Position numbers and translations under genes: made by a program
From: a bacterium
GTDB lineage: Bacteria > Armatimonadota > UBA5829
Reading direction: 5' to 3'
NCBI GenBank assembly: GCA_021373255.1
Contig: JAJFTD010000098.1
Coordinates: 1-41,269 of the forward strand
Length of the DNA: 41,269 bases
The notes under the pieces: generated by a model
Database searches by the model: none
The model's input: the letters and a program-made list of their open reading frames with translations, nothing else
Told to the model about the DNA's origin: nothing
Shown here: one piece after another, positions 763 through 1,519 of the stretch
How the letters are laid out: each line of letters begins with the position of its first letter
How positions within the stretch are numbered: the stretch's first letter is position 1

Positions 763-791
763 TTGACTCCTGAGCAGATATCTGCTAATAT
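763..791 (+). promoter_or_regulatory. Sigma-70-type promoter for secG with a palindromic spacer
   Basis: TTGACT (763-768), a 17-nt spacer and TAATAT (786-791), preceded by TG as in extended -10 promoters. A perfect 14-bp palindrome, AGCAGATATCTGCT (773-786), fills most of the spacer and could be an operator. The predicted leader is about 95 nt long and contains a GGGC-AAGAA-GCCC hairpin near 804-816. Confidence 0.6.
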
Positions 792-830
792 ATGTGAGTT
801 GTAGGGCAAGAAGCCCGTTGACTACTTCGC

Positions 831-884
831 TGTTTCGAGAAATTGTTCTCGGAGCAGGAAATGCGCTTACGCGCTTATGAGGTG
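831..884 (+). repeat. Structured leader element, copy A, in the secG 5' UTR
   Basis: This stretch resembles the reverse complement of 1394-1449, upstream of the small membrane gene. Shared parts in order: TGTTTCGAGAA, GTTC, GGAAA, a GCGC-N4-GCGC hairpin with different loop bases, CTTA and GAGG, which serves as the ribosome-binding site. A second hairpin, CGAGAA-ATTG-TTCTCG, lies at the 5' side. Similarity was judged by eye. Confidence 0.5.
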
Positions 885-894
885 TATCTTTATA

Positions 895-1134
895 ATGGCA
901 TCCTTTTGGCACTGGTTTTTTTCGGCTTTGCAGATGATAAGTGCTGTTGCGCTTATCGCTATTGTTATGTCGCAGGCTACTAAGAGCGAAGGTCTGAGCG
1001 GAACTATCGGTGGTAAGTCTGAGTCTGCGTTTCAGGGGAAGCCGGGCCTTGAAGAGAGGCTTGCTGAGGTCACTAAGTGGTCTGCAGTTAGCTTCCTGGT
1101 GATGAGCGGAATAATGACCTACCTTGTAAAATAG
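895..1134 (+). CDS. secG: SecG, preprotein translocase subunit
   Basis: A small inner-membrane subunit of the SecYEG channel that assists protein export. The 79-residue product has the family's two-helix layout: helix 1 near residues 3-26 (FFSALQMISAVALIAIVMSQ), a Gly/Ser-rich cytoplasmic loop containing SEGLSGTIGG, and helix 2 near 60-78 (WSAVSFLVMSGIMTYLV). The length is normal for SecG. I chose ATG 895 because GAGGTG lies 10 nt upstream; the ATG at 877 has no such site. It is monocistronic, with its own promoter and a hairpin terminator directly after the stop codon. Confidence 0.92.
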   Translation: MASFWHWFFSALQMISAVALIAIVMSQATKSEGLSGTIGGKSESAFQGKPGLEERLAEVTKWSAVSFLVMSGIMTYLVK

Positions 1135-1153
1135 TAGATTTTAGTAATAAAAC

Positions 1154-1190
1154 AATCGCCCACGATTCATGCGAACCGTGGGCGATTTTC
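1154..1190. terminator. Bidirectional intrinsic terminator between secG and the small membrane gene
   Basis: A perfect 11-bp stem, AATCGCCCACG with CGTGGGCGATT, encloses a 12-nt loop. TTTTCGTTT follows on the plus strand and an A-rich stretch precedes it, so it can stop both convergent transcripts. Confidence 0.85.
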
Positions 1191-1216
1191 GTTTATATTA
1201 TTTTGTCGATATAAGG

Positions 1217-1390
1217 TTAAGCGGCTCGCCTTAGTTCTTCATGCGATATTGCCTGGTGAGGGCATTCCTCACACCTGTCGAGTTGACAATCGAAACATTC
1301 ATCACGTTCAGGTTCTTTCGCAGTGAAAACCATATATCCGTACAGGCTGATCGAGCCGATTAGCCATCCTGCAATAAAAGCAATCCACAT
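1217..1390 (-). CDS. Small Cys-rich membrane protein, unknown function
   Basis: A 58-residue product with one N-terminal membrane helix (MWIAFIAGWLIGSISLYGYMVF) and a short polar tail with four clustered Cys residues (CFDCQLDRCEEC), followed by PHQ. The Cys spacing CxxC-x4-CxxC could bind zinc or an Fe-S centre, but I know of no matching family. ATG 1390 is preferred over upstream codons because AGAGG lies about 9 nt before it and the helix then starts at the N-terminus. It follows folP on the same strand after a 129-nt gap holding two copies of a 25-nt repeat. A shared terminator separates it from secG. Confidence 0.7.
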   Translation of the reverse strand: MWIAFIAGWLIGSISLYGYMVFTAKEPERDECFDCQLDRCEECPHQAISHEELRRAA

Positions 1391-1393
1391 AAT

Positions 1394-1473
1394 CCAAACC
1401 TCTAAGCGCGATAGCGCGTTTCCCGTTTCGGGAACTTGTTCTCGAAACACCTCTAAGCGCGATAGCGCGTTTC
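1394..1473 (-). repeat. Structured leader element, copy B, with a 25-nt direct repeat
   Basis: Two identical 25-nt copies lie at 1398-1422 and 1449-1473, 51 nt apart. Each carries AAGCGCGATAGCGCGTT, which folds as GCGC-GATA-GCGC. Read on the minus strand, the copy nearest the small membrane gene ends in AGAGG, its ribosome-binding site. The adjoining segment matches the secG leader at 831-884. Confidence 0.65.
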
Positions 1474-1519
1474 TCTAAGCGCCTTCATTGCGAATTATCG
1501 GCAGATTTAACTAAGTTCC

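Follow-up and report, generated by a model that had tools for sequence, protein, structure and literature searches.

The window, i.e. the whole stretch of 41,269 nucleotides that was analysed, carries near its beginning the gene secG and, convergent with it on the opposite strand, a gene for a small cysteine-rich protein with one likely membrane helix (Table 1). The first-pass annotation had given this protein 58 residues; with the start now placed at 1390 it has 57, and no Pfam or NCBIfam match was found for it. In all 13 relatives with a match (20 were searched) the small gene is encoded on the other strand, no more than 160 nt away from secG, which makes it a conserved neighbour of secG. 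FolP was tried as a synteny anchor and given up: homologues were found, but the 1.5-3 kb retrieved around them contained neither secG nor the small gene. Between the two genes of the window there is a strong terminator-like hairpin of 15 pairs (1154-1187), with a T-run on the minus strand.

Table 1. Genes, putative signals and repeat copies around secG (positions are those of the window)
Feature	Position	Strand	Remarks
Sigma70-like promoter of secG, TTGACT-17-TAATAT	763..791	+	one site where shuffled sequences give 1.6; weak on its own
Full composite copy, secG leader	829..877	+	hairpin 1 831-856, hairpin 2 GCGC-TTAC-GCGC 863-874; 61.6 bits
GAGG ribosome-binding site of secG	879..882	+	also in congeners without the element, by reading
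secG, 79 aa	895..1134	+	TIGR00810 / PF03840
Gene for the 57-aa Cys-rich protein, one likely membrane helix	1217..1390	-	conserved in relatives
GAGG ribosome-binding site of the 57-aa gene	1399..1402	-	downstream edge of the array, by reading
Full composite copy, leader of the 57-aa membrane protein	1403..1451	-	hairpin 1 1449-1424, hairpin 2 1417-1406; 75.0 bits
Truncated further unit(s), hairpin 2 only	1452..1482	-	same array as 1403-1451
CCGATAAT box upstream of the 57-aa gene	1494..1501	-	also in relatives; 80-nt array between box and start codon

The leaders of the two convergent genes have an element of about 50 nt in common, and both copies were located where the first-pass annotation had placed them. 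The aligned 49-nt units share TGTTTCGAGAA, a hairpin, a GGAAA linker, GCGC-N4-GCGC and CTTA. In general terms the layout begins with GG-TG, which is followed by hairpin 1 (at most 11 pairs, closed by a short loop), a linker, GCGC-N4-GCGC (hairpin 2) and a terminal CTTA. The array on the minus strand covers 1403-1482 as a whole (80 nt), and the partial copy reported there at 1449-1473, identical over 25 nt, was borne out. The window copies are no chance matches, since GGGAAACGCGCTATCGCGCTTAGAGG (26 nt of the second copy, up to 3 mismatches allowed) occurs twice in the window, in the second and in the partial copy, vs 0.00 times in shuffled sequences, and since the more diverged secG copy was recovered with an E-value of 1.8e-5 (79% over query positions 1-52) when the whole genome was searched with the second copy.

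Both units lie between promoter-like sequences and a ribosome-binding site. The secG leaders of four congeners contain, by reading, a promoter pair TTGAC(C/T)-17/18-TAT(G/C)AT as well as GAGG, and the composite copy of our genome is found downstream of the promoter-like pair of secG. Upstream of the small gene, the CCGATAAT-like box is preceded at about 15 nt by TGAGGA (in our genome and in 5 out of 10 relatives) or by a variant thereof. The two together are promoter-like, and the box resembles the -10 element of FliA/WhiG-type sigma factors.

Three comparisons of occupied and empty sites indicate insertion of the unit. For secG, a match was found in 18 relatives and 16 leaders were examined over 220 nt upstream, none of which holds the palindrome of hairpin 1. 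For the small gene, a match was found in 13 relatives and 10 leaders were measured; the CCGATAAT-like box lies 18-23 nt before the start in 9 out of 10, and 114 nt before it in the tenth, where the start is uncertain. In our genome this distance is 103 nt. Without the 80-nt array it would shrink to 23 nt, the junction then reading AAGGAGG, or to 20 nt with the right end of the array set three bases further. The third case, at C26, is a unit lying in frame within an alpha-L-rhamnosidase-like ORF, where it accounts for 51 nt, i.e. exactly 17 extra residues that are present in none of the 11 aligned homologues. It is thus the leaders without a palindrome, the spacing restored by removal of the array and the residues absent from the homologues that point to insertion. 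We note that these comparisons leave an ambiguity of 1-4 nt at the ends of the unit and that the right ends do not agree.

No palindrome was seen, by reading, in the 110 nt upstream of glmM in 14 relatives either, and the composite copy is absent from the orthologous leaders examined (16 for secG, 14 for glmM and 11 for the small gene). The 11 leaders of the small gene were inspected over 300 nt; one of them (G005) has a palindrome, which is of the family-B type described below and lies upstream of the box. The same leaders bear on the translation signals. It had been proposed that GAGG is part of the element and that the repeat supplies ribosome-binding sites, and both proposals had to be given up: the four congeners have GAGG in their secG leaders even though the element is missing there, GAGG occurs in few of the 16 right flanks, and AAGGAGG is present at the junction left by removal of the array. 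The Shine-Dalgarno sequences belong to the host genes themselves.

The first-pass annotation had also considered a dispersed repeat, which was right, and had suggested a genome search with a covariance model as a check. When the 4.19-Mb genome was searched with 62 nt of the second copy, 33 matches were obtained, some of which are the same palindrome on the other strand. The covariance model, built from 18 copies, gave 21 matches of at least 50 bits and two more above 40 bits, which are lower bounds as 150 out of 1818 candidates were scored. By reading, hairpin 2 is present in 19 of these 23 matches, at 16 sites, which makes at least 19 such copies in the genome (a single pair is mismatched in two of them, and the loop is longer in another); it is degenerate at C133 and C155 and missing at C147 and C173. 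Direct tandem pairs occur at three sites (C135, C118 and C38). Downstream of three copies (L071, L073 and L078) comes GTATTC(A/G)G(C/T)TA, with GAATAATGCG after it, so these copies are located in or next to another repeat.

In relatives the picture is a different one. Twelve of the 61 genomes searched, our own included, gave matches, and among the matches listed the full-length repeat occurs in our genome only. Outside it the listed matches consist of tag and palindrome alone, 20-36 bases long (in the large cases scoring was limited to 15 candidates at most), with the exception of one match in a congener that covers 43 positions at 81%. The best model score in the four congeners was 39.7 bits (150 candidates scored in each). 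The first half of the unit, i.e. the tag GGTG and a palindrome of 22-24 nt with the core TTTCGGGAAC-TT-GTTCCCGAAA, is a REP-like repeat and stands alone in relatives, up to the class level. Hairpin 2 was tried as an independent repeat as well, and this candidate was rejected: it has 65 matches in our genome at up to 2 mismatches vs 5 in the reversed control, but 42 of these are TCGCGCTNTCGCGATTA; one exact solo hairpin 2 was found (C164:20154), and in the four congeners the matches are at or below the control level. TCGCGCTNTCGCGATTA, with 42 copies in our genome (e.g. G000:C12:22843-22859), is a further dispersed repeat that resembles hairpin 2.

The solitary palindromes of the relatives show how the first half varies. 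The tag GGTG adjoins exactly one side of the palindrome in 22 out of 32 cases, both sides in 2 and a side within one mismatch in 8; the 32 are the distinct copies with at least 8 pairs among the fetched loci, and the fetching queries contained part of the tag, which raises the share of tagged copies but does not create the one-sidedness. It is also conspicuous that the stem changes in pairs between copies, e.g. GAAC/GTTC, GAGC/GCTC and GAAT/ATTC, so that the fold is kept.

The position of the copies relative to genes was determined for 20 sites, i.e. the 16 with hairpin 2, the 2 with a degenerate hairpin 2 and the 2 without it. Eighteen of them are intergenic, as against an intergenic share of 17.8% in these loci. 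The 16 composite sites comprise 2 within ORFs, 7 between divergent genes, 5 between unidirectional genes and 2 at contig edges; the second window copy, which the gene caller had put in the convergent class because it missed the small gene, was corrected by hand. The 7 divergent cases among the 12 classifiable sites correspond to p 0.04-0.05 vs random intergenic positions. Such a placement, together with a core of 22-24 bp that is a near-perfect palindrome, might suggest an operator to which a regulatory protein binds, hairpin 2 being a by-product. We consider this very unlikely: the flanking tag of the relatives' copies is predominantly one-sided, the stem bases differ in pairs between genomes while the fold is kept, and in secG and in the 57-aa gene the unit is found downstream of the promoter-like boxes. 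Moreover, 62 loosely matched palindromes in relatives, some of them chance matches, are distributed over 4 divergent, 20 unidirectional and 7 convergent regions, 23 ORFs and 8 edges.

The excess of composite units close to gene starts, compared to random positions, is marginal to moderate. In a first test with all 18 intergenic sites, 7 were within 40 nt of a start vs 20.9% expected (p 0.06; p 0.03-0.45 at other thresholds). The test was then confined to the 14 intergenic composite sites, which leaves out the ORF sites C26 and C119 as well as C133, C155, C147 and C173. With the caller that also made the control, 6 of the 14 are within 40 nt (p 0.05-0.1); the count rises to 7 when the small gene of the window is added by hand (p 0.015-0.03) and to 8 with a DUF6485 gene added likewise (p 0.003-0.008), both additions favouring the bias, missed genes having been sought at the composite sites only. 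The distances are 14, 14, 17, 28, 30 and 34 nt from the caller, and 12 nt (small gene) and 20 nt (DUF6485 gene) by hand; since the genes were called by codon score, single values may be wrong. In five of these units the CTTA end faces the gene, in three the GGTG end. The constant position relative to the start codon, claimed on the basis of the window, applies to the two window copies and a few others but not to the family, and the numbers fall short of proving that starts are strongly preferred.

A related palindrome, here called family B, is typically GTTG-TTTCGGGAAA-CCCT-TTTCCCGAAA and was found in 33 copies in 40 stretches of our genome (hand-picked from 41 rows, with six GGTG-type singles, one composite copy and one partial match left out). 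Two inverted family-B palindromes, with the same core and the tag GTTG, flank an ORF at C82 (L064), one of them 23 nt and the other 26 nt away from its open frame. The product is a REP-associated tyrosine transposase (RAYT; NF047646, 87.9 bits at a cut-off of 80). Two inverted copies of one repeat around a RAYT gene are what defines a REPtron, and this arrangement is thus seen for the GTTG palindrome at C82; a RAYT gene between two inverted REPs is described as the hallmark by Nunvar 2010 (PMC2817692). The RAYT ORFs at C174 (L063) and C124 (L067) are also above the cut-off, and have other palindromes, inverted, on both sides. As our genome thus has three RAYT ORFs over the cut-off with differing palindromes on both sides, besides a fragment at C102 (L065) with a palindrome on one side, several REP families coexist in it. 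The GGTG palindrome was not seen on both sides of a RAYT, neither at the 7 Y1_Tnp matches of our genome nor at 23 in nine of the eleven relatives searched, i.e. the GGTG form lacks this arrangement at 30 Y1_Tnp matches, one half-site apart. The latter is GGTGTTTCGGGATT, tagged but without the second arm, 59 nt upstream of the C102 RAYT fragment (37.4 bits, below the cut-off).

The two families differ in their position. Only 1 of the 33 family-B copies lies within 40 nt of a start (p 0.003-0.02 vs random), that one being upstream of the RAYT ORF at C82, and 2 of 32 are in divergent regions. The contrast with the composites in closeness to starts is large (Fisher p 0.002 to 0.00007); it owes as much to family B avoiding starts as to an excess of composites, because 1 in 33 is itself below the random level.

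The transposase matches also bear on another reading, in which the unit is a miniature IS200/IS605-like element, with one hairpin from the left end and the other from the right end of a decayed insertion sequence. Two different hairpins near both ends do recall the subterminal hairpins of IS200/IS605, and the best Y1_Tnp matches of the genome (C93) may be such an insertion sequence. Hairpin 1 with its tag, however, forms an independent repeat in other genomes, and the surroundings of the seven Y1_Tnp matches showed no hairpin 1 paired with a hairpin 2; this origin is less likely still than an operator.

Least likely of all is a cis-acting RNA regulator in the 5' leaders of a common regulon (an RNA regulator was one of the two readings of the first-pass annotation): the secG leader RNA folds better than shuffled sequences (z -2.86) and 6-8 of the 14 intergenic composite sites are near a start, but the second leader folds no better than its shuffles (z 0.49), the copies lie in both orientations relative to the nearest start and two of them inside ORFs, the orthologous leaders lack the composite, and no Rfam family except tRNA matches the window. 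In the RNA alignment 97.3% of the cells pair; one pair has a double change, which was reached by 236 out of 500 shuffles, i.e. there is no covariation above that of shuffles. It is this, together with the mixed orientation, that makes a regulator unlikely. The second copy, as RNA, is predicted to adopt another fold, GTTCCC-GAAAC-GGGAAA, in place of the long stem. Scatter without regard to starts and a lack of covariation had been named in advance as findings that would speak against a regulator, and the data come close to this: covariation does not exceed that of shuffles and the closeness to starts is marginal. The hairpins, if transcribed, may nevertheless affect these mRNAs.

The element common to the two leaders is very probably a mobile DNA repeat of the REP type that is not autonomous and that has two hairpins in this form. 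It belongs to a dispersed family, its insertion can be traced at three host sites, and a RAYT ORF lies between copies of a related palindrome. As in REPs, the palindrome is short, dispersed and mostly extragenic, and an unpaired tag is present on one end, even though the copy number is low for REPs. In mechanistic terms, the GGTG tag is followed by a palindrome able to form a hairpin in single-stranded DNA, and in this species both are joined to the second, small hairpin GCGC-N4-GCGC that ends in CTTA. A RAYT (TnpA-REP, a HuH single-strand transposase) may recognise the tag and the hairpin and move or copy the unit, as proposed for REPs elsewhere; the composite could be mobilised by the C82 RAYT or by another one.

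Compared with REPs and REPtrons with RAYT/TnpA-REP (Nunvar 2010, PMC2817692; Di Nocera 2013, PMC3733652; TnpA-REP biochemistry, PMC8266576), the similarities are the unpaired tag on one end, the dispersed and mostly intergenic occurrence, the stem changes that keep the fold, and the related palindrome that flanks a RAYT ORF in inverted orientation. The differences are the tag, which is GGTG (GTTG at the RAYT) and not GTAG, the low copy number and the second hairpin. Membership in the GTAG superfamily was rejected on account of the tags, GGTG in the composites and GTTG in the RAYT-linked family (the published variants of GTAG are GYAG, GYRG, GTRG, GTMG and GTGG), and so was membership in the CGTC superfamily, whose tag the unit does not carry. 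The position of the composite is likewise unlike that of ordinary REPs, as gene starts and divergent regions are not avoided, whereas published REPs are mainly found between unidirectional or convergent genes, near 3' ends (PMC3733652). BIMEs and REPINs are similarly arrays of REP units, but they consist of two inverted REPs with a spacer; the tandem composites are direct repeats and their second hairpin is no REP, so this assignment was rejected too. The closest published analogue is the degenerate GTAG-1 unit of Pseudomonas, which together with an unrelated stem-loop forms the composite repeats at ppf 607 of Pseudomonas putida and pfs 4255 of P. fluorescens; these have hundreds of copies and flank a RAYT gene (PMC3733652). 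In both cases a REP and an unrelated stem-loop are multiplied as one unit; the organisms and the sequences are other ones, and a RAYT-flanking composite was not seen here.

The right flanks may hold a clue to the choice of target. In 14 of the 16 right flanks without a following copy the fourth base after CTTA is G, with p 2.6e-7 for that column alone, which is the best of the 24 columns examined. At tandem junctions one or two bases separate CTTA from the next GG, and the flanking G thus matches the head of a following unit. The unit may therefore insert beside G-rich sequence, the GG of a Shine-Dalgarno sequence being one such place; if insertion before GG is preferred, this alone would direct units to Shine-Dalgarno sequences, and copies would survive there where the ribosome site remains usable. 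A bolder and rather doubtful extension is that a REP lineage with a second hairpin has gained a new insertion habit, i.e. that it lands at the GG of Shine-Dalgarno-like sequences and so installs hairpins between the transcription start and the ribosome-binding site of many genes in one species. If this is true, genes such as secG and glmM may be affected in the translation or the stability of their mRNAs.

With the mobile-repeat reading, the range of REP/RAYT systems would be extended to a GGTG-tagged form with two hairpins that does not avoid gene starts, unlike the RAYT-linked family of the same genome. The three natural comparisons of filled and empty sites, one of them inside an enzyme, can serve for tests of insertion. 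The case also calls for caution: where two neighbouring leaders have a structured element in common, two insertions may lie behind it rather than a regulon.
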